Assembly (NCBI RefSeq): GCF_900155395.1
Contig: NZ_LT699728.1
Location: 310,001-374,000, forward strand
Source: Merdibacter massiliensis
Lineage (GTDB): Bacteria; Bacillota_I; Bacilli_A; Erysipelotrichales; Erysipelotrichaceae
Direction of reading: 5' to 3'
DNA length: 64,000 nucleotides
Each line of letters starts with the position of its first letter. Positions within the stretch are counted from its first letter, which is position 1. This document shows, piece after piece, positions 47,800 through 62,828 of this stretch. The notes under the pieces were generated by a model. That model worked only from the letters and a program-made list of their open reading frames with translations, was not told the origin of the DNA and made no database searches. The position numbers were made by a program, and so were the translations under genes.

Positions 47800-48951
47800 T
47801 TACATTGCTTTATGGTACAATGCAATAATATCTTTTACGCTGGTAGCACGCGGATTTGCCATGACATTTGCACTCTTCATTGCATCTTCTGCCATCGCTT
47901 CGATCTTATCTTCTTTTACGCCTACCTCAGATAATGAAGAAGGGATACCTAGATCTTTATTTAATTTTCTGATTTCATCTACCAGCATCTGCGTATTAAA
48001 ATTCTCAGCAGGCTTCTTGTCACTGCGGATAAAGTTATAGATTTTTTCATATCTTCCATCACGGTCTGCCAAAGCATTGTATTCTACTACTGTTGGCAAT
48101 AACACTGCATTCGCCACACCATGTGCAACATGGAAATAAGCAGAAACTGGATGACTCATTGCATGCACATTTCCTAACTTGGCCCAAGCGAATGACATTC
48201 CTGCAAAGGTGGAACCTAACATCATTGCACATGCAGCAGTTTCATCTTTACGATTTGCAACAAAACGACGGATATTGCTTCCAATCAATTCCATTGCTTT
48301 TTCTGCCATTGCATCTGTAAATGGTGTTGCAAAATTTGAAATATATGCTTCTAATGCATGAATGAATGCATCAACACCACAAGAAGCCGCAACACTGGCA
48401 GGAGCTGTCATAATTAATTCCGGATCCAAGATAGCATATTTTGGCAAGATCTCATAACTGATGATAGAAAACTTGTAATTTCTAGCCTCATCCGTAATAA
48501 CAGAAGAAGCCGTAACTTCACTGCCTGTTCCTGCTGTCGTCGGAATAGCGATCATTGGTACGATTGGTCCTGGAACCTTGTAAAGACCTTCATAATCCGT
48601 TACTTTACCGCCAAATTTCACCAGCACACCAGTTGATTTTGCCACATCCATCGGAGAACCGCCACCAAGTGCGACAATACTTGTAGCTCCGCATTCTTTA
48701 TAAGTCTTAACTGCATTTTCAACACATTCTATCGTTGGATTTGGTACGACATCCAAGAAACTTGTGCATGCAATACCTGCATCTTTCACGATCTTTTCAA
48801 CTTTGGCAACTACGCCCAAACTCTCCAGACCATGGTCTGAAATCAACAGCACATGATCGGATTGATTCTCTTTCAAGATCTCTGGTAATTTTTTTAAACT
48901 GCCTACTCCAAAATGAATGTCCTGTGGAACTTTAAAATTAAAATCTTTCAT
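47800..48951 (-). CDS. Iron-containing alcohol dehydrogenase (group III)
   Basis: The 383-aa enzyme interconverts an alcohol and aldehyde with NAD(H). It has GGGSPMD (about 97 to 103), IPTTAGTGSEVT and the metal ligands Asp194, His198, His263 and His277 in the normal spacing. It resembles the lactaldehyde/1,3-propanediol group. The product or substrate may cross the membrane by the adjacent TauE-type exporter or by the DASS carrier. This is a different branch from the enzyme at 38.2 kb. Confidence 0.92.
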   Translation of the reverse strand: MKDFNFKVPQDIHFGVGSLKKLPEILKENQSDHVLLISDHGLESLGVVAKVEKIVKDAGIACTSFLDVVPNPTIECVENAVKTYKECGATSIVALGGGSPMDVAKSTGVLVKFGGKVTDYEGLYKVPGPIVPMIAIPTTAGTGSEVTASSVITDEARNYKFSIISYEILPKYAILDPELIMTAPASVAASCGVDAFIHALEAYISNFATPFTDAMAEKAMELIGSNIRRFVANRKDETAACAMMLGSTFAGMSFAWAKLGNVHAMSHPVSAYFHVAHGVANAVLLPTVVEYNALADRDGRYEKIYNFIRSDKKPAENFNTQMLVDEIRKLNKDLGIPSSLSEVGVKEDKIEAMAEDAMKSANVMANPRATSVKDIIALYHKAM

Positions 48952-48966
48952 GATATATCTCCCCCT

Positions 48967-49752
48967 TTAAAGCACAGACATCAAGTTTGTCAATAACATA
49001 TTGCCACCTACAAATAACAGTACTAAGTAAACAATACGCAAGAATGTTTCCTTGTTGATCTTTTTCAAGAACAATGCCCCTAAGATAAATCCTACGGCAG
49101 CAAATGGAAGACCTACGACCAAAGCACTGCTTAATTCAGGTGTCCAAGCTCCATTTCTTACCTGGTTAAATGCATTGATACAATTCAGTACCAGCCATAC
49201 CCAAGTCATCGTATTACGGAAATGTTCTTTTTCTTTTACCGCATAGATCGTATAGACCGTGATCAAAGGACCTCCAATATTAAATGCACCATGTACAATT
49301 CCGCCAACAGCTAAGCACAGATAACGCAATGCTTTTTTTGCTGTCGTATCTTCAACATCTTCTTTTACTTCTTTTTTCAAAATAAGAGGTACGATAATAG
49401 ATTTATAAATGTTCATCAATGCTATAAAAGTAACGATGCCCCCAATGATGATGCTTGCTGTAACTTGATCCATCATATAGAACAAGAAATTTCCAATGAA
49501 TAAACCAGGCACACAGAAAACGACGATTTTCCCCAAATCTTTCCAAGCTACATTTTTTCTTTCTTTTAAACATAAAACAATAAATAACGGAATCGTGATC
49601 ATTGTTCCAAAAGGCACACCTACTGCTGTTCCTAAGATACCATTCGTTACGGCTGCCGCAATGACCGTACTACCAAAACCTGTACATCCCTGGATAAAAA
49701 AGCTGATGAAATTCATCAAACCTACCCAAATGTACGAAATGTCAAAAACCAT
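48967..49752 (-). CDS. TauE/SafE-family (sulfite exporter type) membrane protein
   Basis: The 261-aa protein has about eight membrane helices in two repeats. The first repeat has FIQGCTGFGSTVIA, the second GGIVHGAFNIGGPL, which are the family's paired motifs. TauE/SafE proteins export sulfite, sulfonates or other small anions and acids. It is first in an operon with the iron dehydrogenase and UPF0303 gene, so it may move the acid form or a sulfonated relative of the dehydrogenase's substrate. This is an inference only. GGGAGGAAG precedes the ATG. Confidence 0.88.
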   Translation of the reverse strand: MVFDISYIWVGLMNFISFFIQGCTGFGSTVIAAAVTNGILGTAVGVPFGTMITIPLFIVLCLKERKNVAWKDLGKIVVFCVPGLFIGNFLFYMMDQVTASIIIGGIVTFIALMNIYKSIIVPLILKKEVKEDVEDTTAKKALRYLCLAVGGIVHGAFNIGGPLITVYTIYAVKEKEHFRNTMTWVWLVLNCINAFNQVRNGAWTPELSSALVVGLPFAAVGFILGALFLKKINKETFLRIVYLVLLFVGGNMLLTNLMSVL

Positions 49753-50458: not shown

Positions 50459-50467
50459 TCACACTCT
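50442..50467 (-). terminator. Terminator of the mannose-family PTS operon
   Basis: On the minus strand AGAGTGTG pairs with CATGCTCT (two G-U pairs) and is followed by a T run. The stem includes the stop codon of the HAD hydrolase gene. Confidence 0.65.
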
Positions 50468-51175
50468 TAATTTTGTCTCTATATATTTTTTGACCTCTAA
50501 TAAACTTTCATATTCTAGGGCACCTTTTATAGTTTGATTTTTAGTCGTTTCTATTTTTTTTAGCAGCTTATACTTTCCAGCATAGTTTGGCATATCAGAT
50601 AAATCATCTTTGATCCAAAACGGATGCATTTCACCCCTTAATGCAGCATTTACTCCCGCTATTGAATCTTCTAATACAATTGTATGCAAAGGAGAAATAT
50701 TCAAAAACGTGCATGCCTTTAAAAAAATTTCAGGATCAGGTTTGCTTTTAATAACACTACTACCATCTATGATAATATCAAAAATCATCGGAATCTGTTC
50801 CACATCTAACCAATATAGAATTGTATCCATTGTGCTACCTGAGCATAGTGCTATTTTCATACCTATTCCTTTTAAATAGTTCAATAATTCTAATAATCCT
50901 TTTTTCTTTCCAACCTTTACCCGCCTCTTTAACCTTTGATTACGTATTTCGATGATTGTATCCCTAAACGACCGTGTAGGAGCCTCTTCTCCATATAAAG
51001 TGATTAGCTCTTTCCTTATATCCTCATCATTTCTTCCTGTCAGATATTCATAGACCTCATAACTCATTTCAAAATTCCATATTTGTGCGGATTCCAAATA
51101 TATTTGATATAAGAAACGTCCTGTTTCTATCATTAGACCATCCATATCAAATATGACTAATTGTATATCATCCAT
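50459..51175 (-). CDS. HAD-superfamily phosphatase, beta-phosphoglucomutase-like
   Basis: The 238-aa protein has the HAD motifs in order: DMDGLMIE (nucleophile Asp), CSGS, and KSKPDPEIFL with ...EDSIAG. It is of the class with a helical cap, so it acts as phosphatase or phosphomutase on a small phosphorylated sugar or acid. The ATG at 51175 overlaps the aldolase stop (ATGGATGA); a start at 51196 would overlap more. It is last in the operon. In a PTS pathway it may remove phosphate from a dead-end or toxic sugar phosphate. Confidence 0.85.
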   Translation of the reverse strand: MDDIQLVIFDMDGLMIETGRFLYQIYLESAQIWNFEMSYEVYEYLTGRNDEDIRKELITLYGEEAPTRSFRDTIIEIRNQRLKRRVKVGKKKGLLELLNYLKGIGMKIALCSGSTMDTILYWLDVEQIPMIFDIIIDGSSVIKSKPDPEIFLKACTFLNISPLHTIVLEDSIAGVNAALRGEMHPFWIKDDLSDMPNYAGKYKLLKKIETTKNQTIKGALEYESLLEVKKYIETKLRV

Positions 51176-51782
51176 TAACTTTTTGCACAAGTTCATTCAG
51201 TTTTCTTTGCGCTTCCTGAGGATCTTTTTGGACATCTTTTTCAGATATGATGAAAGAGCCCCCTACTGCTACTACACGATCATTTGCCAAGTAGTCCAAA
51301 CAGTTTTCACTGTTTACACCGCCGGTTGGCAAAAAGCGTACATCATAAAATGGGCCACTTAATGATCGAATAGCTGTCACACCACCGTAAATATCAGCTG
51401 GAAAAAATTTAACAGTATGGATACCATAATTCAATGCTGATTGTATGTCCCTTGGTGTTGCCACTCCCGGTATTACAGGAATATCTTTTTCAATACAGTA
51501 TTGAACAACTTCGTCAACCAAAGCAGGTGACACTATAAAACGTGCTCCATTTGCAATAGCATCCTCCGCTTCTTTCTTTGTTCTAACAGTTCCTGCACCA
51601 ACAATCAATTTACCAGAACGGGATAAAATCTTGATTGCTTCTAATGCCAGATGACTTCGAAAAGTAACTTCAATAAACGGCACTCCCGCATTTACTAAAA
51701 TACTTTCTAATTGTGGTAAGCAATGCAGATCTGTCACAGTATAAAGAGGTAATAACTTTACTTTTTCTAATTGCTCGATCAT
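51168..51782 (-). CDS. eda: 2-keto-3-deoxy-6-phosphogluconate aldolase (KDPG/KHG)
   Basis: The 204-aa class I aldolase splits KDPG into pyruvate and glyceraldehyde 3-phosphate. PLYTVTD, FIEVTFRS, IVGAGTVRTK and the Schiff-base lysine in VKFFPA are all present, with LPTGGV near the end. Length is typical. Its ATG overlaps the UxuA-like stop by 4 nt (ATGA), and its stop overlaps the phosphatase start by 8 nt, so the three genes are translated together. No KDG kinase gene is in the cluster to make its usual substrate. Confidence 0.94.
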   Translation of the reverse strand: MIEQLEKVKLLPLYTVTDLHCLPQLESILVNAGVPFIEVTFRSHLALEAIKILSRSGKLIVGAGTVRTKKEAEDAIANGARFIVSPALVDEVVQYCIEKDIPVIPGVATPRDIQSALNYGIHTVKFFPADIYGGVTAIRSLSGPFYDVRFLPTGGVNSENCLDYLANDRVVAVGGSFIISEKDVQKDPQEAQRKLNELVQKVNG

Positions 51783-52858
51783 TTTTTCCCTTCTTCCAAT
51801 CTTGATTTACAAATAGCTTCATATAGCCCTTTCAGATACATAAAACCTAATGCCCTATCGTATAAACCATACCCTGGCATAGCTACTTCGTCCCATATTT
51901 TTCGGCCATGATCAGGACGAATGACACCATCAAAATGGATTTCTATTAAAGCCTTCATCAATTGATACATATCAAAAGACCCGTCTTCCGAACAATGTGC
52001 ACTTTCACGGAATTTTTGTTCTCCTAAAAACTCAATATTACGCAAATGGACAAAATGAATCCTACCTGCTAATTCATGTATTACTTGTACCAAATTAGTT
52101 TCTGGATTCGCCCCAAGAGATCCTGTACATAAAGTAACACCATTGTATGGAGAATCGACAGCTTTTAAAATGCGTCTATAATCTCGTAAATTCTTTGTGA
52201 TTCTTGGTAAACCAAATATTTCCCAAGGAGGATCATCCGGATGGATTGCCATTTTTACATCTACCTGTTCGCATACCGGAATGACTTTTTCTAAGAAATA
52301 TTTTAAATTATTAAACAGATCTTCCTCTGTCATACCTTTATACAAATCCGCTAATACATTAAATTTTTTCAATCTCTCTTCTTCCCATCCCGGTAATTGA
52401 AAACCATTGGCTTGCGAATTCACCAATTGAAACATTTGTGAAGCATCCATATCTTTTAATGTATTTTGATCAAAAACCAATGAATAGCTTCCATCTGGAT
52501 TTTTATAATTTAAATCTGTTTTAGCCCAACCGAAAATTGGTTTAAAGCTATAACAAACAAGATGAATTCCACAAGCAGATAAATTTTTTATCGTTTCTAT
52601 ATAATTATCAATGTACTTATCTCTTTCACCTGTTCCTGCCTTGATTGCATCATGTACGGCTACACTTTCAATTCCAAGAAGTTCTAATCCTTCTTTTTCA
52701 ATAGAAGATTTAAACTTTTTAATTTCTTCCTTTTCCCAAACTTCACCAGGTAATTTGCCTAGTAAAGTTCCTACAACACCATCCGTACCCGGAATTTGAC
52801 GAAAATGATGTAATGGTATCGAATCTTTTTCACCATACCAGCGAAATCCCCACTTCAT
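51779..52858 (-). CDS. uxuA: Mannonate dehydratase (UxuA-like)
   Basis: The 359-aa protein follows UxuA enzymes, which dehydrate D-mannonate to 2-keto-3-deoxygluconate. Visible hallmarks are FRWYGEKDSIPL near the start, MAIHPDDPPW, TLCTGSLGA, HFVHLRNI and RPDHGRKIW, which hold the manganese ligands and the active-site His and Asp. It lies between a PTS IIA gene and the KDPG aldolase. Because the PTS delivers phosphorylated acids, a 6-phospho-substrate is possible here; this is inference. Confidence 0.93.
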   Translation of the reverse strand: MKWGFRWYGEKDSIPLHHFRQIPGTDGVVGTLLGKLPGEVWEKEEIKKFKSSIEKEGLELLGIESVAVHDAIKAGTGERDKYIDNYIETIKNLSACGIHLVCYSFKPIFGWAKTDLNYKNPDGSYSLVFDQNTLKDMDASQMFQLVNSQANGFQLPGWEEERLKKFNVLADLYKGMTEEDLFNNLKYFLEKVIPVCEQVDVKMAIHPDDPPWEIFGLPRITKNLRDYRRILKAVDSPYNGVTLCTGSLGANPETNLVQVIHELAGRIHFVHLRNIEFLGEQKFRESAHCSEDGSFDMYQLMKALIEIHFDGVIRPDHGRKIWDEVAMPGYGLYDRALGFMYLKGLYEAICKSRLEEGKK

Positions 52859-52873
52859 CCAATCATCTCCATT

Positions 52874-53311
52874 CTAAAAATCATCTTCCTCTTCTGTATC
52901 GTCAGCTGCATGCCATAAATCGATATTTTGTTTACCTTGTTCAACAGCTGCACTAGCTAATTCATGTATAGGGGTATTCAAAATCTGTGCATTGATTGCC
53001 TCTAACAAAACCGGCAAATTAACACCACCGATGACATATACATCATTTTTTAACGTATTCTCCAATGATGAAGTAGCAATCAATGATTGATTATATGGAC
53101 TAGCACTAATTAAATCTGTTAGCACAATTACTCCATCTCCTTGGTTTACTTTCGATATAGCTTCTGTGATTTTTCCAGACAATTTCTGAACATCTTCTCC
53201 TGCCAAAAGATTTACAGTCGCAATATTATTTGTTTCTCCCATGATTACTTCTGCTGCATCTTTTAAACCATTGCTAAAAGTTCCATGTGTTGCAATTACA
53301 ATTCCTAACAT
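52874..53311 (-). CDS. PTS component IIA, mannose family
   Basis: The 145-aa protein has IATHGTFS with phosphohistidine His9 near the N-terminus, as in the IIA domain of mannose-type systems. It receives phosphate from HPr and gives it to IIB. It ends in a long acidic tail. Its start overlaps the M28-like membrane protein gene by 7 nt. This is separate from the IIB, IIC and IID genes further upstream in the same operon. Confidence 0.92.
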   Translation of the reverse strand: MLGIVIATHGTFSNGLKDAAEVIMGETNNIATVNLLAGEDVQKLSGKITEAISKVNQGDGVIVLTDLISASPYNQSLIATSSLENTLKNDVYVIGGVNLPVLLEAINAQILNTPIHELASAAVEQGKQNIDLWHAADDTEEEDDF

Positions 53312-54186
53312 AGCATCTCCCTCATTACCTTCATAAAGGTCTCTATATTCTTTTCTTCAATTACCTTCTGATTCAATTGTTTTTTTGTTAACATCAATCC
53401 TTTTGAGTTTTTATCTGCACTGATCCAAACATTTACATCATTTTCTTTTGTATACCAATCAATTGAATATTTATCTAATATTTCTTGTGAAAAATCTCGA
53501 CCAAGGACATGTAATGGAGCATGTGCGCCAATTGAATCAAGATAATAAATCTTACAGTCCTTTGGAAGTGAATCCTTCATTGCTTCCAATCCCAAATCAC
53601 CTTGACAACCTTTGTCTAGAAACGCAAATACGACATCTTTCCGTTTATTATCACGTATCATCTGTAACAAGCAAAGAATGGATGATGTATTGCGTATCAG
53701 ATTTTTTCTATTTAATTGACCTTTGGAGACTTTCGCTAAAAAAACAAAATAAATACCAAAAAGCATAGATACTACAAGGGTCTTCCAAGAAAAGAAAGAA
53801 AATCCCTGTGAAATACTCTTCATATAAAACAGCGTTAATCCTACACCAATTGCTAACGTAATGAGTGCATAAAAAATATTTTTAATCATAGTTTGTTTTT
53901 TTTGACTCTCTATTTGAAAAAAATAGTATGGGCCCCAATAGGAAAGCGGTGTATCGAAATAGGTACAAATCATTACATTAGCATGCTTCAGATCTCCAAC
54001 ATACACATTCTGTGATGATTCCTTTCCATTAGATTGAAATTCTATGACCTGAATGTTCTTCGTAATTTGCAAGATATCATGAACTAGTGCTTGTACCATC
54101 TTTTTCTTATTTTTTAGAGTTGATCTATTCTTTAATATATATTGATAATGTAAGATCCAGTCTTTATATTGTTCTTTCGCATTCAT
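53305..54186 (-). CDS. Membrane protein with a degenerate M28-peptidase-like fold
   Basis: I know no named family. The 293-aa protein lies between PTS genes, with two membrane helices (about 102 to 122 and 134 to 152). The soluble parts read like an M28 aminopeptidase split by these helices: MICTYFDT at the place of the usual HxD strand, NTSSILCLLQM for the DNxSG helix, VVFAFLDKGCQGDLG for the EExG loop, and IYYLDSIG for the next Asp. Most metal ligands are missing (no His, no Glu-Glu), so it is probably not a peptidase. The ATG at 54186 is placed best behind GGAG. It overlaps the IIA gene by 7 nt. Role unknown; perhaps a structural or sensing partner of the PTS. Confidence 0.5.
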   Translation of the reverse strand: MNAKEQYKDWILHYQYILKNRSTLKNKKKMVQALVHDILQITKNIQVIEFQSNGKESSQNVYVGDLKHANVMICTYFDTPLSYWGPYYFFQIESQKKQTMIKNIFYALITLAIGVGLTLFYMKSISQGFSFFSWKTLVVSMLFGIYFVFLAKVSKGQLNRKNLIRNTSSILCLLQMIRDNKRKDVVFAFLDKGCQGDLGLEAMKDSLPKDCKIYYLDSIGAHAPLHVLGRDFSQEILDKYSIDWYTKENDVNVWISADKNSKGLMLTKKQLNQKVIEEKNIETFMKVMREMLC

Positions 54187-54252
54187 ATTCATGTCTCCAA
54201 TAAGAAGGTAAGGGAAGTAAAATTCCCCTTTTCCTTATTAATTCATTCAATT

Positions 54253-54756
54253 CTAAAATTGACTAACAACATCTTTTAAATCAGTCTTTGATGCAGCAGG
54301 TGTGGATTGAAAATATATATCCTCTACGCCATATTGTTCTTTCATTTCGACTAATTTATCAACATCTGTTTTATTAATGTATACAGATTTAGTTACAAAT
54401 TTGTCTGTATCTGGATTCTTTTGTGCAATTCCGCCTATGTTCAATTCTTTCATAGGCACACCATGCTTTGCCAATTGATACATAGTATCTACTGTTTTTG
54501 CAATTAAAATGCAGTTATAATCTTTATATTTATATTCATCCCAATACATCTTTGCTTTTTCTAGCGTAATGACAATTGTCTTCTTTCCTGTACGGGCACC
54601 AGCATTTTTAAATAATTCACGCATGAATTTATCTTTTGCAACGACATCATCGACAACAAAGATAGAATTTACACCTGCTTTTTGAGATAACGTCATCATA
54701 ACCTGTCCATGAATCAAACGTTCATCGACACGTGCTAAATTTATTGTTCCCATCAT
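54253..54756 (-). CDS. PTS component IIB, mannose/sorbose family
   Basis: The 167-aa protein has RVDERLIHGQV with phosphohistidine His16. It carries phosphate from IIA to the sugar handled by IIC/IID. Length is typical for a free-standing mannose-type IIB. It is followed by the M28-like gene. Confidence 0.94.
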   Translation of the reverse strand: MMGTINLARVDERLIHGQVMMTLSQKAGVNSIFVVDDVVAKDKFMRELFKNAGARTGKKTIVITLEKAKMYWDEYKYKDYNCILIAKTVDTMYQLAKHGVPMKELNIGGIAQKNPDTDKFVTKSVYINKTDVDKLVEMKEQYGVEDIYFQSTPAASKTDLKDVVSQF

Positions 54757-54766
54757 TGTCCTCCTT

Positions 54767-55621
54767 CTATAGAATTCCTATAGCTGCTAAAACAATTAAG
54801 ATCAAAGTCAACCAAAGTAACGCTTGTGTAACTTTTAGACCTTTTTTATTAAAATAGAAGAATACACCCATTACGACTGCTAATGGTAAAATACCTGGCA
54901 ACACGGTATCTAAAATATCTTGTACGATAAACTCTTTCCCTGAAATAGTAAATTGCAATGATGAAGAAACTTTTACGTATTGACCAGCTAAGATTCCCAT
55001 CATATAAAGACCTAATACAGATAATGTATCAATAGCTGTTTGTACACCCGTACTTCCCATGAGGCTTGTTGCATTACGCCCCATATCAAATGCTTTATGT
55101 GCAAAAAACAGTCCAAGGATTACCTGATATAAGGCAAAGAATACAAATGGGAATAATGCACCCAGTGGGCTTCCTTGTTCAGCCCAAGGAACTGCAATAG
55201 CAATAAAGATATATTGAATCGTACCGGAATCAATTGCATCACCAATTCCAGCTAACGCCCCCATCAAACCAGCTTTCGTATTATACATCAAGTCGTCTTT
55301 CATTGTGATTTCTGCATTTTCATATTCTTCTTTAGCGCGCTGTTGTTCCATTGATGCCATCAAACCTGTGATAACACCACCTCCCCAGCTCAACTGCGTA
55401 TTAAAGAATAATAATTGACGTTGATATGCTTCGCGTCTCTTTTCTGGATCTTTATACAATTTTTTTAATACAGGCTGCATTGCATAAAGCAAAGATGGAG
55501 CCAAATAACGTTCAAATGAATGTGGAATCTCATTTGCAAAATGCCATCTTAAATACGCTTTGGTAATATCTTTTTTTGTCAGCTCTTCAGGAGCTTGTAC
55601 TTCTTTCATTTTATCTGTCAT
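54767..55621 (-). CDS. PTS component IID, mannose family
   Basis: The 284-aa protein starts with the cytoplasmic stretch LTKKDITKAYLRW typical of IID, then the helix of SFERYLAPSLLYAM and the conserved GLMASMEQQ region, and has several membrane helices towards the C-terminus. It forms the sugar channel with IIC. It is 20 nt behind the IIC gene. Confidence 0.93.
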   Translation of the reverse strand: MTDKMKEVQAPEELTKKDITKAYLRWHFANEIPHSFERYLAPSLLYAMQPVLKKLYKDPEKRREAYQRQLLFFNTQLSWGGGVITGLMASMEQQRAKEEYENAEITMKDDLMYNTKAGLMGALAGIGDAIDSGTIQYIFIAIAVPWAEQGSPLGALFPFVFFALYQVILGLFFAHKAFDMGRNATSLMGSTGVQTAIDTLSVLGLYMMGILAGQYVKVSSSLQFTISGKEFIVQDILDTVLPGILPLAVVMGVFFYFNKKGLKVTQALLWLTLILIVLAAIGIL

Positions 55622-55641
55622 GCCTATTCTCCCCCTTTATC

Positions 55642-56475
55642 CTAGAATCCATCATCATAATCATCATCTGACAATTCAACAACATTATTAGCTGTTTCAG
55701 TTGAAGGTCCCGTTTTCGTATTCTTTTGTGATAGTACAAATATGATGGCAATGATTACACCAAAGATTGCATAAGTTACCATTGTAATGCCTAAGCTAGC
55801 AAAACTAACACTCATGAAATAAGCTAAGAAGAAGAATGGCAAAAATTCTTTACGTCCAATAACATATACAGTAGTTGCAATACCGATAGCTGCCAAGCCA
55901 CCACCAACAACATCTAATATATGAATCACAACAGTTCCTTCCAATGCATTGATTACATCTGCGATAACTGGTGCACCAAAATACAATGCAATAAATACCA
56001 AAGGTACGAACAAAATAAATGAAGCTATAGTCGGGTATGCAATGACTGAGCGAGCAATCGCACGATCATTCAAAGATTCAACAGCTTTATCTGTATATTT
56101 ACCTAAGAAAGTATTGATGAAGAAACGTAACTGGTATAGATAACTACCTAACAGACCTACTGGAACAGCAACAGCAATAGCAGATTCGGCACTTAAATGT
56201 CCTAATAATGCAACCGGGACAGCAATTGCTGCAGCAATTGAAGGCTCACTAGGCATAGAACCGCCTGGTGAAAAGACACCCATGTAAATCAACTGTAATG
56301 CAGCTGTAACAACCATTGCTTGTGCAACTTCGCCCATTACAACACCACAGATCAGTCCTGTCATCAATGGTGAAAAACGCAATGTTAATGTAGCACCACC
56401 TAATAGCCAACGTGACATAACGCATGCTACCCAGATGGCAATCAACAAACTTTGCATAACACTTAAGGTTTCCAT
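55642..56475 (-). CDS. PTS component IIC, mannose/sorbose family
   Basis: The 277-aa membrane protein has about six to seven helices and the family loop MQSLLIAIWVACVMSRWLLG at the N-terminus, followed by LMTGLICGVVMGEVAQAMVV and the GVFSPGGSMPSEPSIAAAIA region that faces the substrate. The tail is acidic. It is first of the transport genes, 18 nt behind the glycerol-dehydrogenase-like gene. Confidence 0.93.
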   Translation of the reverse strand: METLSVMQSLLIAIWVACVMSRWLLGGATLTLRFSPLMTGLICGVVMGEVAQAMVVTAALQLIYMGVFSPGGSMPSEPSIAAAIAVPVALLGHLSAESAIAVAVPVGLLGSYLYQLRFFINTFLGKYTDKAVESLNDRAIARSVIAYPTIASFILFVPLVFIALYFGAPVIADVINALEGTVVIHILDVVGGGLAAIGIATTVYVIGRKEFLPFFFLAYFMSVSFASLGITMVTYAIFGVIIAIIFVLSQKNTKTGPSTETANNVVELSDDDYDDGF

Positions 56476-56493
56476 ATTATTCTACATCTCCTT

Positions 56494-57603
56494 TTAATCT
56501 TCATATTTTTTCATGTATTCTTCAAGTTCGTATAAAGCTTGTTTTAGTGTAGTGACATTCACCTCAGTCGGTATCAAATGTACTTTTTGTTTGGAATCGA
56601 TAAATGCAACTAACTCGTCAATCACTTTTTCATCTTTTGGATAAAGCCCCATCTGATGCAGAGATAGCGGTAAGTTTAGATCCTTATAAAAAGGCATCAA
56701 TGAATCAATCGTTGACCAATGTTTTTCTAAAGCCATTTGATATAAGATCCCGTATGCAACTTTTTCTCCATGCAAGAATCGATGACTATCTTCTATTAAC
56801 TTTGCCATTCCATCATGCATAGCATGTGCCGCTGCGTTACGTGCATATTTGTCTCCTAATCCGCCACATAAACCAGCAACAGCAATGACTATTTCTGATA
56901 ATCGTACAAATTCATCACTGACATTCCCCTGTTTCATATCCTCAATCGCTTTTTTCGAATCACGTACGATTGCATCATTGCATACTTTTGCAACATAACC
57001 AGCCAACTGCGGAAATGTTTCGCTTTGTAGTTTCTCTTGTGCCAAAATACTTTCTGATTCATACCATTTTGCAATTGTGTCTGCTAATCCGGCAACGAAA
57101 TAGCGAACAGGCGAATCAATTGTCAAATATGGATCAGTAATCAAAAAGGCTGCCTGACGTTTAAAATGCTCTGTTCCACCTGTTGATGCACCATTCTCCT
57201 CATACATAACTGACAGAGGTGTCCATGGAGCACAATTGGATACTAAGGTAGGTATCAATCCAAAAGGAACATTTGTACAATGACCTGCAAAACCAACGAG
57301 ATCCGATAATTTTCCACCGCCAACGCCAATGATAAAATCGATATCTTTTTCTTCTACAATCTTCTGTATCAATTCCATTCCATAATAACTACATTCCCCT
57401 GTATATTCATGGAAGTAAAATGTACGATCAGGAAGATCTAAGAATTTTAAAAACGGTTTTGCTTTTTTCCAAGAAATTGTCCCATGCACAATCAAAATAT
57501 TTTGTGCTTTGTACTCGTCCAATAGTTGTGGAACCAAATCAATTGCACCCTTATGATAGCGGTAATACTGCGGTCCCACTTTCACTTGTAAATCTAATAA
57601 CAT
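56494..57603 (-). CDS. GldA/HcxA-like dehydrogenase
   Basis: The 369-aa protein belongs to the glycerol dehydrogenase branch of the iron/zinc dehydrogenases. NAD is bound around GVGGGKLSDL (about 93 to 102), and metal ligands are expected at Asp175, His260 or His263, and His278. It should oxidise or reduce a polyol or hydroxy acid. In this operon it may convert the PTS product, for example between a keto acid and its hydroxy form, much as HcxA does with hydroxycarboxylates. This is inference from context. Confidence 0.85.
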   Translation of the reverse strand: MLLDLQVKVGPQYYRYHKGAIDLVPQLLDEYKAQNILIVHGTISWKKAKPFLKFLDLPDRTFYFHEYTGECSYYGMELIQKIVEEKDIDFIIGVGGGKLSDLVGFAGHCTNVPFGLIPTLVSNCAPWTPLSVMYEENGASTGGTEHFKRQAAFLITDPYLTIDSPVRYFVAGLADTIAKWYESESILAQEKLQSETFPQLAGYVAKVCNDAIVRDSKKAIEDMKQGNVSDEFVRLSEIVIAVAGLCGGLGDKYARNAAAHAMHDGMAKLIEDSHRFLHGEKVAYGILYQMALEKHWSTIDSLMPFYKDLNLPLSLHQMGLYPKDEKVIDELVAFIDSKQKVHLIPTEVNVTTLKQALYELEEYMKKYED

Positions 57604-57614
57604 TTTTAGCCCCC

Positions 57615-58613
57615 CTATTCTTTGATATAAACACTAATAGCTTGAACGGCACGTTCAGGCAATTTCCCATCAATAATCATCTCTACATCCCGTACACATT
57701 TCTCACCCATCTCTTCTAAACATTCCATTGTATAAGCAGATGTGTGAGGTGTCATGATAACATTATCAAACTCTAAATATGGATGATCTGATCGCCCAGG
57801 TTCTTCTTCTAGCACATCTGTGGCAAATCCAGCAATCTTTCCAGAGCGAAGAGCAGAAATAATAGCTTTTTCATCAACTAATGCACCACGAGCACAATTT
57901 GAAATATATACATTATCTTTCATCTTCATAACTTCATCATGTGAAATCATATGATAATTTTCTTTTGTTAAATTTGCACATAAGCAGATAACATCACTTT
58001 TTTGTAACAATTCTTCAAATCCAACCTTCTTAGCACCATATCTTTCAATATACATTTTTGATTTATATGGGTCATATGCTAAGACATTGCAGCGGAATCC
58101 ATTTCGTACGATTTCACAGACACAGCTGCCAGTATTTCCAATCCCAATGATCCCTACTGTTTTATTGAACAATGTATGTCCTACAAATTGTGCACGATCT
58201 TCCCAACGGTTCGCTTTTACTCGATCATTTGATTGTTTGGTCTTTCGCATGACTGCCAAAAGATTTGTTATATTATTTTCTGCAACTGCATCTCTTTCCA
58301 CTAAAGCAGGAACGATTGTTACTACTGTATCATGCTTTTTTGCAGCTTCTAGATCAATATTGTTATAACCAATTCCATGTCGAGCTATTAAAATCAATTC
58401 ATCTTTATATTCAAAAAATTTTTTTGTAAAGAATGGAGTCACACTAGAAATAATGATATTATATCCATGCAGTAATTCAGCCAACTCTTTCCCATCAATT
58501 TGTTGATCTACCGTAAAGTGTTTTACAAGGCCAATCTTTTTCAATCGTTCTATATGATTCGGAAAAATTTTTCCATAACTGCTTGAATTGATGATTGCTA
58601 TACGATATTCCAT
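57615..58613 (-). CDS. D-isomer-specific 2-hydroxyacid dehydrogenase
   Basis: The 332-aa protein has the NAD motif VGIIGIGNTGSC, followed by the catalytic Arg (SNCARGALVDE), Glu (VLEEEPGRSD) and His (MTPHTSAYT). It reduces a 2-keto acid or oxidises a D-2-hydroxy acid. The substrate may be a sugar acid rather than lactate or glycerate, given the neighbours. It overlaps nothing but is only 11 nt from each neighbour, so it lies in the operon. Confidence 0.9.
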   Translation of the reverse strand: MEYRIAIINSSSYGKIFPNHIERLKKIGLVKHFTVDQQIDGKELAELLHGYNIIISSVTPFFTKKFFEYKDELILIARHGIGYNNIDLEAAKKHDTVVTIVPALVERDAVAENNITNLLAVMRKTKQSNDRVKANRWEDRAQFVGHTLFNKTVGIIGIGNTGSCVCEIVRNGFRCNVLAYDPYKSKMYIERYGAKKVGFEELLQKSDVICLCANLTKENYHMISHDEVMKMKDNVYISNCARGALVDEKAIISALRSGKIAGFATDVLEEEPGRSDHPYLEFDNVIMTPHTSAYTMECLEEMGEKCVRDVEMIIDGKLPERAVQAISVYIKE

Positions 58614-58624
58614 GATTTACCCTC

Positions 58625-59527
58625 TTACTTCTCTGTTTTTACCACTGCATGTCCACCAAAGCCATTGCGTAATGCGGAAACCACTTTACATGCATAATTA
58701 TCTTCTTCTTGTGAACGATTACGGACCATTAAAGATAAAGCAATAACTGGTACAGGAACTTCAAGTTCCAAGGCAGTTTCCACTGTCCATTTTGCTTCGC
58801 CACTTGCAGCAACAACACCTTTAATATCTGCAAGATCCGGATGTGCTTCAAATTGATTTTGTGCAATTTCCATCAACCATCCACGGATTACTGATCCATG
58901 ATTCCAATTTTTTGCCACCTCTGCCAGGTTATAATCAAATTGGCATTGACGCATAATCTGAAAACCTTCTCCAATAGCCTGCATCATGCCATATTCGATC
59001 CCATTATGTACCATTTTCATAAAATGACCGCTTCCAGCATTACCAGTATAAAGACATCCATCCTCAATAGAGACATCCATAAACACATTTTCTAAATATT
59101 CATATGCCTCATGATCTCCGCCAATCATCAAACAAGCTCCATGTCTAGCTCCTGAAGTACCACCAGATGTACCGACATCTAAAAATTTTAACCCCTTTTC
59201 AGAAAGTATTTGCGCATGACGAATAGAGTCTTTATAATTAGAGTTACCTGCATCAATAACAATATCATTTGACCCTAACAGATTCATTACTTCTTGAATG
59301 CAATCATCTGTTGCTTTTCCAGAAGGAACCATCATCCATATGACCTTTCTTTCTGGGAGTGAATTTACCAAATCCTGGACTGTAGAAACAACTGAAATGC
59401 CTTTTTTAGATAATTCTTCTCTGGCTATTTCATTCAAATCAAAACCGATAACATCATGTCCATGATCCACTAGATTTAATGCAAGATTTGATCCCATCTT
59501 GCCCAAGCCAATGAGTCCAATATTCAT
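58625..59527 (-). CDS. 6-phosphogluconate dehydrogenase, short (decarboxylating) type
   Basis: The 300-aa protein has GLIGLGKMGSNLA for NAD(P) and the catalytic Lys in KMVHNGIEYG. Members of this short form (GntZ/YqeC-like) oxidise 6-phosphogluconate to ribulose 5-phosphate and CO2. The ATG at 59527 follows GGAGG; a start at 59554 is less likely. It is first in the operon. It would suit gluconate taken up and phosphorylated by the mannose-type PTS. Confidence 0.9.
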   Translation of the reverse strand: MNIGLIGLGKMGSNLALNLVDHGHDVIGFDLNEIAREELSKKGISVVSTVQDLVNSLPERKVIWMMVPSGKATDDCIQEVMNLLGSNDIVIDAGNSNYKDSIRHAQILSEKGLKFLDVGTSGGTSGARHGACLMIGGDHEAYEYLENVFMDVSIEDGCLYTGNAGSGHFMKMVHNGIEYGMMQAIGEGFQIMRQCQFDYNLAEVAKNWNHGSVIRGWLMEIAQNQFEAHPDLADIKGVVAASGEAKWTVETALELEVPVPVIALSLMVRNRSQEEDNYACKVVSALRNGFGGHAVVKTEK

Positions 59528-59628
59528 TGGAACACCTCCATTCTTTATCTCCATTATATCGAAAAAAATTTTTTTGTAAAGGCTTTCTTATGAAAAAAAT
59601 ATTTTATTAAGTGTATATCATATAATTA

Positions 59629-59811: not shown

Positions 59812-60660
59812 ATGAAAATTCCTATTCCCTTGCAGATCAAATCCATATATTCTGAGTTAAGTCCTACAGAAAAAAGGATTGCCAACTATATTCTTGAAAA
59901 TCCAAAAAAGATTGCTACTTATTCCATTAGCGACCTTTCGTCAGATCTTGGAATTGCCGATTCTACCTTTTTTCAATTCACAAAAAAACTTGGATTTAAA
60001 GGTTTTAAAGATTTTAAGATGACAGCATTGATTGAGCGCAATGATATTGATTTATCTGTTCCTGAAAATATCATGGACAGTGATGATGAGCTAGCTATGG
60101 CTCAAAAAGTATTTGATTCAAATATCAAGACACTCAAGCAAACATCATCTGTCCTTCAAAGAGATGATCTAGCAAAAGCTGCACGATATATTAGTGATGC
60201 AAATAATATTTACTTTTTTGGTGTAGGGGGTTCCGAAATCATTGCGCAAGACGCTTATCACAAGTTTCTACGTTCCCCAACTCGTCCTCATCATGATTCG
60301 GATTATCATATTCAGGTCATGGAATCTTCTTTATTGACGCCAAAAGATGTAGCTATTTGTATTTCACATACTGGAAAATCAAAAGAAACGATTCATCTAG
60401 CCGAAATATCTAAAAATAATGGTGCCAAAGTGATTGTAATTACCAGTCATAAAACCTCTCCATTAGCTAAATTAGGTGATATAGTACTCATTTCCATTTC
60501 TGAAGAAATAGAGTTTCGATCTGAGGCTCTTTCTTCTCGTATTTCTCAGCTTGCCATTTTAGACTCTTTATATGTCATTTTATGCTTCATGCATAAAAAG
60601 CAAGCACAGCAACGTCTTAAGAAAATACGTGCTTCAATATCCACAATTAAAACAAAATAA
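59812..60660 (+). CDS. RpiR-family regulator of the mannose-type PTS operon
   Basis: The 282-aa protein has the HTH_6 domain (1 to about 75, IADSTFFQFTKKLGFKGF) and a SIS domain (about 120 to 260, FFGVGGSEIIAQ and ISHTGKSKETIHLAE). It is transcribed away from the operon across 284 nt and probably senses a phosphorylated sugar acid made by it. It is only distantly similar to the RpiR gene at 10.7 kb. AAGGAGA precedes the ATG; a strong terminator follows. Confidence 0.92.
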   Translation: MKIPIPLQIKSIYSELSPTEKRIANYILENPKKIATYSISDLSSDLGIADSTFFQFTKKLGFKGFKDFKMTALIERNDIDLSVPENIMDSDDELAMAQKVFDSNIKTLKQTSSVLQRDDLAKAARYISDANNIYFFGVGGSEIIAQDAYHKFLRSPTRPHHDSDYHIQVMESSLLTPKDVAICISHTGKSKETIHLAEISKNNGAKVIVITSHKTSPLAKLGDIVLISISEEIEFRSEALSSRISQLAILDSLYVILCFMHKKQAQQRLKKIRASISTIKTK

Positions 60661-60776: not shown

Positions 60777-62828
60777 TTAATAATTTGTTGCTTGTCTTTC
60801 AAAATAAGCCTTTGGATATCCGCAAGTCGGGCAAACTTCCGGTGCATGGATATCAAAATGCAAATGCCCGCATTGCCGGCACATCCAGAATACTGCGCCT
60901 GCTTCCTTAAAGACTTCCCCATTTTGCAAACGTTCCAGCAGTTTGCGATAGCGGGCTTCATGAGCTTTCTCTACTGCTGCTACTCTTTCAAATTTCTCGG
61001 CCAGATCCATGAACCCTTCTTCCCTTGCTTCCTTGGCCATCCGCTGGTACATATCTGTCCATTCGTCATTTTCACCTTGTGCTGCTGTTTCCAAGTTTTC
61101 CATCGTATCGCCGATGCCATGAAATTCCTGGTACCACATCTTGGCATGTTGCGATTCCTGCTCGGAAGTTTCCATGAAAATGGACGCAATCTGTTCATAA
61201 CCTTCTAGTGTTGCTTTTTGTGCAAAATATTTATATTTATTTCTAGCCTGCGATTCTCCTGCAAATGCCTCCATCAGGTTCTTCTCGGTCTTTGTACCAG
61301 CATATTTGCTGTTTTTCTTGCTTTCTTCCATTATTTCTTCAAACTGTTCTGCCCCCATCTTGCATAATGGACAGACAAAGTCTGGTGCCAAGCTCTCTGC
61401 TTCATGGATATATCCGCAAATTTTACATCTAAATTTTTTCATTGTTTTGTTCTTTCCTTTCACTAGATCTTCACTGCGATCCTTGTAGTTTGTGTGCAGC
61501 ATCTGTTTAGAAAATGCACTTAATGGTTGTTGATAAAAATCCGTATATAATTGTATGATTTCCGGATTGGCATAGGAGGATCTTATCTCTGCTTGCTGAT
61601 CACGCTGATAGAGTCCTTGCATCCTTTTTTTCAATGTATCCGGATCTGCCTGCAGCCATTCTTTAGGCTGTCCTCCACCGCCGATGCAGCCGCCTGGACA
61701 AGTCATCACTTCTATAAAATGATAAGTTTCCTTTGTCTGCTCTATCTGGTGTAGAAATCTTTCTGCACTAGCTGTTGTAGAAATAACTGCAAATTTTACT
61801 TCTATGCCATTGATATCCAATGAACCGGCTTTGACATCATCAAAACCGCGGACCGGCTGTAAATTCAACAATTCTGCTTTTGGTTCTTTGTTGGTCATTA
61901 TGTGATAAGCGCTGCGCAAAGCAGCTTCCATGACACCGCCGCTGTTGCCAAACAAAATTCCGCCCCCGGAAGCCTGCGACATCAAAGGGTCATATGTATC
62001 GTCTGGCAGCGATGAAAAATCGATATTTTCTTCTTTTGCCCATTTTGCTAGTTCCCGTGCGGTGATCACATGATCCATATCTTTTATCTCAGGTAATTCC
62101 AGATATGTTTTGGCATCATTGAGTTCTTCACGGCGTATCTCAAATTTTTTAGCAGTACACGGCGTCAAGGCGACATTGATGATTCGTTCAGGATCAATGC
62201 CCATCTTTTTAGCAAAATAGCTTTTTACTGTTGGTCCCTGCATGCCGATTGGGCTCTTTGCAGTGGATAAATTTGGAATATATTGCGGTTTAAATGTCTC
62301 CACATATTTGATCCATGCCGGGCAGCAGCTTGTAAATTGCGGGAGTGTCCCGTTATTTTGGATTCTTTCCACCAATTCATTCGCTTCTTCCATAATAGTC
62401 AAGTCAGCCGCAAAATTTGTATCCAAGACATAATCAAACCCCAGTTTGCGCAACAGCGCTACCATCTTCCCCTCAACAAAAGAACCTGGTTCCATCTGAA
62501 AGGCCTCTCCCAAAGATACGCGAACAGATGGAGATGTGGATACGACCACAATTTTATCTTTATCATGGATCCACTTTTTTACTTTTTGATATTCATCTCT
62601 TTCATGAATACTGTCTGTTGGACAAACGTTTGCACATTGTCCGCAATGAATGCAGATCGCCATGTCGTTTGTATCTTCCAGCGAATAAAAGCCATGTACA
62701 TGGATCTTTTCCTGGCAGACCAGCTTGCATTGTCCGCACTTGATACATAAGCTTTCATCTCTGACAATTGATGGATTATCTTCTTCAATGGCTACACGAA
62801 CATCCAAAGGCAAATGCTTACTCATCAT
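60777..62828 (-). CDS. [FeFe]-hydrogenase fused to rubredoxin-rubrerythrin-rubredoxin
   Basis: One 683-aa frame joins two enzymes. Residues 1 to about 455 are a group A hydrogenase: two ferredoxin clusters (Cys28, 31, 34, 38; Cys59, 62, 65, 69), then the H-cluster motifs TSCCPAW (Cys168; proton-relay Cys169), PCTAKKFE (Cys224), and [12 protein letters not shown] (Cys377, Cys381). Residues 463 to 683 are a rubredoxin (Cys468, 471, 486, 489), the rubrerythrin diiron helices (Glu520, Glu558-x2-His561, Glu620-x2-His623), and a second rubredoxin (Cys650, 653, 666, 669). It predicts hydrogen-driven reduction of peroxide in the cytoplasm. The ATG at 61442, at the fusion point, is a possible second start. 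No cluster is missing. The start overlaps the Fur-family stop by 11 nt. Confidence 0.94.

Follow-up and report, generated by a model that had tools for sequence, protein, structure and literature searches.

A putative kinase-free hexonate operon of Merdibacter massiliensis and a UxuA subfamily linked to a mannose-family phosphotransferase system

The EF3142-EF3134 operon of Enterococcus faecalis (OG1RF_12405-12397) was assigned in 2009 to gluconate catabolism "via the mannonate route" (PMC2766626), and gluconate utilisation was repeated for OG1RF_12405-00 and 12399-97 in 2016 (PMC4707282). EF3142 was described as a 6-phosphogluconate dehydrogenase (Gnd), EF3141 as a 2-hydroxyacid dehydrogenase (2-HADH), and EF3140 as an oxidoreductase (PMC6506618). 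In 2020 it was proposed that the product is phosphorylated by the kinases EF0424/EF2265, or that the substrate is imported by the phosphotransferase system (PTS) and already phosphorylated before its dehydration by EF3135 (PMC7701990). The Entner-Doudoroff route was shown in E. faecalis decades ago, yet its genome has no edd gene (PMC7701990). Here we describe an operon of Merdibacter massiliensis, found in a stretch of 64,000 nucleotides (contig NZ_LT699728.1, positions 310,001 to 374,000; hereafter the window), that has the same order as the E. faecalis genes, i.e., Gnd, 2-HADH, oxidoreductase, EIIC, EIID, EIIB, EIIA, UxuA, and Eda, the E. faecalis gene products being taken from PMC6506618, PMC7701990, and PMC8262876.

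The window operon lies on the minus strand (59527-50459) in a single orientation, with gene boundaries touching or almost touching, and encodes, in order, Gnd, 2-HADH, an iron-containing alcohol dehydrogenase family protein (Fe-ADH), EIIC, EIID, EIIB, a 295-residue protein, EIIA, UxuA, Eda, and a HAD-family protein (Table 1). An earlier note, made from the window alone, had listed a mannose-family PTS, 6-phosphogluconate dehydrogenase, UxuA, Eda, two dehydrogenases, and a phosphatase, all of which were found in place; the 295-residue gene (53305-54192) had been overlooked. We estimate a probability of about 0.68 that the operon encodes a self-sufficient hexonate pathway that needs no kinase, its likeliest substrates being gluconate and related acids, and in which the PTS-linked UxuA would dehydrate a 6-phosphohexonate directly to 2-keto-3-deoxy-6-phosphogluconate (KDPG). 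The mannose-family PTS would import the acid as its 6-phosphate, UxuA would remove water from it to give KDPG, and Eda would complete the route, while Gnd would divert 6-phosphogluconate to ribulose 5-phosphate, and 2-HADH and Fe-ADH would act as accessory oxidoreductases for keto-6-phosphohexonates. Eda is a family of aldolases that cleave KDPG to pyruvate and glyceraldehyde 3-phosphate.

The UxuA of the operon belongs to a distinct subfamily. We aligned 117 rows, consisting of 79 classical UxuAs (including those of E. coli and S. suis) and 38 PTS-linked ones, the latter representing 34 distinct loci, since four rows are second copies of the same contig. Positions 104, 106, 110, and 113 are N, M, D, and R in all 79 classical rows and in 0/38 PTS-linked rows, where S104, K106, G110, K113, T221, and K222 are fixed (38/38). 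The classical motif YNFMP..DWTR (79/79) is accordingly YSFKP..GW.K in the PTS-linked group (38/38), and YSFKPIFGWAK in the window. H206, C244, D316, H317, and Y330 are fixed in both groups, and H271 in all but one row, which is classical; we take these six residues to be the metal ligands and catalytic His/Tyr known from the S. suis enzyme, with positions mapped by alignment. Compared with the classical enzymes, the PTS-linked UxuAs have gained two lysines, exchanged one Arg for Lys, and lost one acidic residue at the end of a barrel strand. A changed motif with the chemistry retained is as would be expected of a change to a phosphorylated substrate.

Our phylogenetic analysis placed the PTS-linked UxuAs in one clade (support 100/100) whose stem is long (1.37 changes per site). 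E. faecalis UxuA, for which a crystal structure exists (1tz9), is 67% identical to that of the window and shares its motif and clade, and an E. faecium plasmid UxuA also has the PTS-type motif. The classical motif is kept in ten classical UxuAs of the family to which M. massiliensis belongs, which share 42-47% identity with the window UxuA. K35 was dropped as a subfamily marker, being present in 13 classical UxuAs. It is somewhat probable that the clade has a new function, converting 6-phosphomannonate or 6-phosphogluconate to KDPG as a 6-phosphohexonate dehydratase in place of Edd; if true, this would explain the enterococcal Entner-Doudoroff route without edd. These proteins may thus be wrongly annotated as "mannonate dehydratase". 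With its invariant motif change and its association with a PTS instead of a 2-keto-3-deoxygluconate (KDG) kinase, this single subfamily offers a well-defined candidate that would be simple to test.

Scanning 84,980 species genomes yielded 80 related loci, 32 of which (L007-L037 and L073) have a UxuA 62-80% identical to that of the window (54-58% in the other 48). The same PTS was found in all 27 of the 32 that have enough flanking sequence. Because the block is conserved in these 27 other loci, from Clostridium, Erysipelotrichaceae, Enterococcus, Vagococcus, Trichococcus, Dolosicoccus, and a metagenome-assembled genome of Streptococcaceae, a chance grouping is excluded. Counted over 28 loci (the 27 and the window), the PTS and UxuA are present in 28/28, the 295-residue gene in 26/28, and Gnd in 12/28. 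Both dehydrogenases occur in 19/28, including the window, 2-HADH without Fe-ADH in five (L010, L013, L033, L034, and L073), Fe-ADH without 2-HADH in one (L009), and neither in three (L018, L028, and L029, two of them isolates), which have Gnd, PTS, and UxuA. Where a gene is missing, the remaining genes abut in the loci inspected, and no close Fe-ADH homolog was found genome-wide in eight operon-bearing genomes (best identity 26-38% or none). Since the PTS and UxuA are constant and the dehydrogenases come and go, the core consists of import and UxuA, and the dehydrogenases are accessories.

The two types of locus also differ in KDG kinase. Among classical loci with UxuA and Eda, a KDG kinase gene lies nearby in 12 of 13, the 13th being a 2.7-kb fragment, whereas no KDG kinase was found in the PTS-linked loci, where the nearby PfkB genes (L032 and L035) are ribokinase-like. 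These counts refer to related loci, not to independent events; the KDG kinases of the classical loci are mostly 65-91% identical to one another (37% in one). A 502-residue gene product encoded after uxuA-eda in Trichococcus was considered as a hexonate kinase and rejected, as it is TrpE. Four short Trichococcus-type contigs (L014, L016, L024, and L025) carry a PTS-type UxuA and Eda, with trpE and trpG next where annotated (L014); they end within ~650 bases upstream of UxuA, and no EIIA was seen in that stretch. L025 is labeled Sedimentibacter but groups with Trichococcus, and is probably a mislabeled or contaminant contig.

The M. massiliensis genome (2.47 Mb, 99.85% complete) was searched by family for the enzymes that other routes would use. 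The earlier note had found no KDG kinase in the operon, which was confirmed, and had pointed to the rest of the genome, where none was recognized either. The genome encodes five PfkB proteins: a 1-phosphofructokinase and a pyridoxamine kinase above equivalog cut-offs, one protein that scores highest as a fructokinase and whose gene adjoins a GH32 gene, one that is ribokinase-like, and one unassigned. All are at most 26% identical over their full length to the KDG kinases of the classical Eda-linked loci. This comparison was used because the NF052444 KdgK profile was not decisive: among 24 genomes, its cut-off was reached in only 1 of 14 controls. DgoK, glucose-6-phosphate dehydrogenase (Zwf), and the uronate isomerase UxaC were not found in the genome. 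Edd was not found either; the sole IlvD/Edd-family protein is taken as IlvD because its gene lies beside ilvC. No FGGY gluconokinase was recognized, the sole FGGY kinase above cut-off being GlpK-like, a glycerol kinase by sequence. The genome has a single UxuA and a single 6-phosphogluconate dehydrogenase, and neither a further source of 6-phosphogluconate nor a kinase for the conversion of KDG to KDPG was found. Because a recognizable KDG kinase, Edd, glucose-6-phosphate dehydrogenase, UxaC, and FGGY gluconokinase are all lacking, the operon appears self-contained. Another mannose-family PTS locus of this genome (L113:906-8546; G000:C23 ~8.9-16.5 kb) encodes a further, divergent Eda-family aldolase with a weaker match (115 bits), as well as a SIS-domain sugar isomerase, a dihydrodipicolinate synthase-like aldolase, and a 2-hydroxyacid dehydrogenase; this locus perhaps specifies another phosphorylated sugar-acid pathway.

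Given a phosphorylated substrate, 6-phosphomannonate seems the likelier one, and 6-phosphogluconate used directly is only moderately behind; sequence cannot decide between them. The manno configuration is favored because the catalytic residues of mannonate dehydratase are retained, and direct use of the PTS product because some loci have Gnd but neither dehydrogenase. UxuA might thus be an outright 6-phosphogluconate dehydratase, a non-homologous replacement of Edd, with Gnd taking the rest of the 6-phosphogluconate and the dehydrogenases serving ketogluconates. The three loci with Gnd, PTS, and UxuA only, the eight genomes without a close Fe-ADH homolog, the Entner-Doudoroff route shown biochemically in E. 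faecalis without edd (PMC7701990), and the description of the E. faecalis EII as gluconate-specific (PMC4707282) all speak for this sub-variant of the kinase-free route. Mannonate and gluconate differ, however, at C2, the carbon that loses the proton, and the retained metal ligands and catalytic His/Tyr favor the manno form, so that we rate it as rather unlikely. In another sub-variant, UxuA would act on 6-phosphomannonate made by the two dehydrogenases: 2-HADH could oxidize 6-phosphogluconate to its 2-keto form and Fe-ADH could reduce this to 6-phosphomannonate, and the two window enzymes could in this way also interconvert 6-phosphogluconate, 2-keto-6-phosphogluconate, and 6-phosphomannonate. 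Both genes are indeed present in 19/28 loci, and an extract of Lactobacillus suebicus, a lactic acid bacterium, interconverts 6-phosphomannonate and 6-phosphogluconate, so 6-phosphomannonate is a real metabolite and a 2-epimerase activity exists (PMC6978723). On the other hand, five loci have 2-HADH alone, L009 has Fe-ADH alone, three have neither, and in eight of the loci without the complete pair no close Fe-ADH homolog is found genome-wide. Because the dehydrogenases vary between loci and the PTS and UxuA are constant, such a pair cannot be the general mechanism; epimerization by the dehydrogenases, as the earlier note had suggested, is not borne out beyond the loci that have both, and we consider this sub-variant rather unlikely.

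The dehydrogenases could instead extend the substrate range, the PTS importing also 2-ketogluconate (perhaps 5-ketogluconate) and 2-HADH reducing 2-keto-6-phosphogluconate to 6-phosphogluconate, which fits either UxuA substrate. The independent presence and absence of the 2-HADH and Fe-ADH genes, as well as the fermentation of 2-ketogluconate by S. faecalis described in 1964 (cited in PMC7701990), agree with this explanation, which we regard as a tentative but quite possible one. A search for API 50 phenotypes of Enterococcus species, to be set against the gene variants, yielded nothing usable. The classical route, in which UxuA would dehydrate free mannonate and an unrecognized kinase would phosphorylate KDG before Eda, can appeal to the fact that UxuA is a genuine PF03786 member and to a ScrK-like kinase (L001) that is a distant relative of KDG kinases (130 bits to NF040938, cut-off 400). 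It is nevertheless very improbable, as neither the genome nor any of the PTS-linked loci has a recognizable KDG kinase, UxaC is lacking, and the PTS phosphorylates its substrate on entry.

Several points weigh against the kinase-free route as we propose it. With gluconate as the chief PTS substrate, an epimerizing step to 6-phosphomannonate would be needed, yet L018, L028, and L029 have Gnd as their only dehydrogenase. The changed UxuA residues lie at the end of barrel strand 4, from which their contact with the substrate's C6 end is inferred, and drift or some other specificity could also produce motif differences between two clades separated by a long stem. In two of the 28 loci, L009 and L018, no Eda gene adjoins UxuA, although it does in all the others. 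The absence of a kinase was judged by family and is no proof of absent activity, as fructokinase-like kinases can be promiscuous. No enzyme assay for the enzymes of this operon was found in the literature searched.

The listed start of gnd, ATG 59554, falls within a -10 box (TATAAT, 59558-59553). Because of this overlap, a GGAGGT upstream of an internal ATG, and 6-phosphogluconate dehydrogenase profiles that start at residue 10, the start is probably 59527, and that of the earlier note is likely wrong. The palindrome AAAAAAATTTTTTT (59562-59575) lies upstream of gnd in the spacer between the -35 and -10 boxes and is proposed as a putative RpiR operator; the product of the divergent RpiR gene is presumed to be the local repressor. 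The same box-palindrome-box arrangement precedes the first operon gene in eight loci (L007, L010, L013, L018, L028, L029, L034, and L073), seven of which have Gnd first and one (L034) 2-HADH, and an RpiR-family gene adjoins most of the related operons. L017, L023, L036, and L037, which have Gnd first and a nearest RpiR ~36% identical, have different promoters. The motif was not seen within the 110 bases examined in several loci with 2-HADH first, e.g., L012 (RpiR 63% identical), loci whose actual gene starts are uncertain. No catabolite-responsive element was matched in the operon with a strict pattern.

Table 1. Features of the window operon and its upstream region (positions in the window).
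Feature	Coordinates	Strand	Evidence
Promoter, -35 TTTACA (59580-59575) and -10 TATAAT (59558-59553)	59553..59580	-	11/12 promoter match
Gnd, NAD-type 6-phosphogluconate dehydrogenase, short gnd_rel type, 300 residues	58625..59527	-	TIGR00872 399 bits (cut-off 297)
D-2-hydroxyacid dehydrogenase (2-HADH), SerA/GhrB-like	57615..58613	-	PF02826 and PF00389 above cut-off
Fe-ADH-family dehydrogenase, GldA/YbdH-like	56494..57603	-	PF00465 75.6 bits, above Pfam cut-off; top NCBIfam match NF007880 under cut-off
Mannose-family PTS EIIC	55642..56475	-	75-85% identity across loci; annotated homolog on E. faecium plasmid
Mannose-family PTS EIID	54767..55621	-	73-82% identity across loci; annotated homolog on E. 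faecium plasmid
Mannose-family PTS EIIB	54253..54756	-	PF03830 128 bits, above Pfam cut-off
295-residue protein	53305..54192	-	no Pfam/NCBIfam match; M28-aminopeptidase-like predicted fold
Mannose-family PTS EIIA	52874..53311	-	PF03610 93 bits, above Pfam cut-off
UxuA, PTS-linked (K106/G110) subfamily	51779..52858	-	PF03786 469 bits, above cut-off; NF003027 mannonate dehydratase 461 bits (cut-off 191)
KDPG aldolase Eda	51168..51782	-	TIGR01182 203 bits (cut-off 156)
HAD-family sugar-phosphate phosphatase or mutase, beta-PGM/HxpB-like	50459..51196	-	PF13419 82 bits, above cut-off; equivalog-level matches under cut-off
RpiR/MurR-family regulator with SIS domain, divergent	59812..60660	+	PF01380 and PF01418 above cut-off

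EIIC and EIID were named from gene order, from 73-85% identity to their counterparts in 27 loci, and from the E. faecium plasmid annotation. 2-HADH (65-77% identical in 23 other loci) is a proposed 2-keto-6-phosphogluconate reductase and Fe-ADH (55-70% identical in 19 other loci) a proposed keto-6-phosphohexonate reductase, both substrates being assigned by inference; a literature check on the substrates of YbdH/HcxA gave nothing. The 295-residue gene lies between those of EIIB and EIIA and is present in 25/27 other PTS-UxuA loci. In its AlphaFold model (mean pLDDT 84), a two-helix hydrophobic hairpin interrupts an M28-aminopeptidase-like fold, with a Foldseek match to the S. griseus aminopeptidase (E 2.6e-7, TM ~0.5), and the protein may be a membrane-anchored pseudo-peptidase serving the PTS. 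The usual first metal-binding His is apparently substituted (CTYFDTP in the window copy). Directly downstream of the operon, 47800-49752 (-) contains a second Fe-ADH-family dehydrogenase gene adjoining that of a TauE/SafE-type exporter. A 683-residue protein encoded at 60777-62828 (-) has a ferredoxin/[FeFe]-hydrogenase-like part and rubredoxin- and rubrerythrin-like parts, judged by eye.

Among 146 genomes of the window's family, a PTS-type UxuA was found in three (100, 79, and 75% identity), the rest having at most 57%, and UxuA was not found in either of two searched genomes of the same genus, which are 85-86% complete. Because of this sparse distribution and of a Clostridium intestinale copy 80% identical to the window UxuA, horizontal transfer is suggested. 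The 36-kb plasmid pVB3378_p4 of an E. faecium blood isolate (NZ_CP072711.1; L129) carries the PTS-UxuA-HAD block, followed by several insertion sequences; there, no Eda gene adjoins UxuA, and the 295-residue gene is annotated as two fragments. The whole pathway appears to be mobile among Firmicutes that are only distantly related, and to have reached a plasmid of E. faecium.

The central idea, PTS phosphorylation before dehydration by UxuA, has already been published as a hypothesis. The kinase-free pathway of the earlier note is therefore not new as an idea, but it gains from the absence of a KDG kinase and from the clade-wide change of the UxuA motif. What is new here is the diagnostic motif and clade of UxuA, the KDG kinase contrast between locus types, a genome without detected alternative kinases, Edd, or glucose-6-phosphate dehydrogenase, and gene-content variants that rule out a universal two-dehydrogenase epimerase. 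The E. faecalis operon is the closest system; the window has in addition the HAD gene and the 295-residue gene, which are outside the nine listed E. faecalis genes, and annotated KDG-kinase-like genes lie elsewhere in the E. faecalis genome (EF0424 and EF2265), whereas none was recognized in that of the window. With the classical UxuA-KdgK-Eda uronate route, the window shares the UxuA fold, its catalytic residues, and Eda, but it has neither a KDG kinase nor UxaC, its substrate-pocket motif is replaced, and import is by a PTS. With the canonical Entner-Doudoroff route (Zwf, Edd, and Eda), it shares the KDPG intermediate, Eda, and the entry from a 6-phosphohexonate, while its genome lacks Zwf and Edd and the dehydratase would be a UxuA. 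The mannonate kinase/6-phosphomannonate 2-epimerase route of L. suebicus likewise links 6-phosphomannonate with 6-phosphogluconate, but there a kinase acts on mannonate, carbon leaves via phosphoketolase, and the genes are unknown (PMC6978723), whereas the window has a PTS together with UxuA and Eda.

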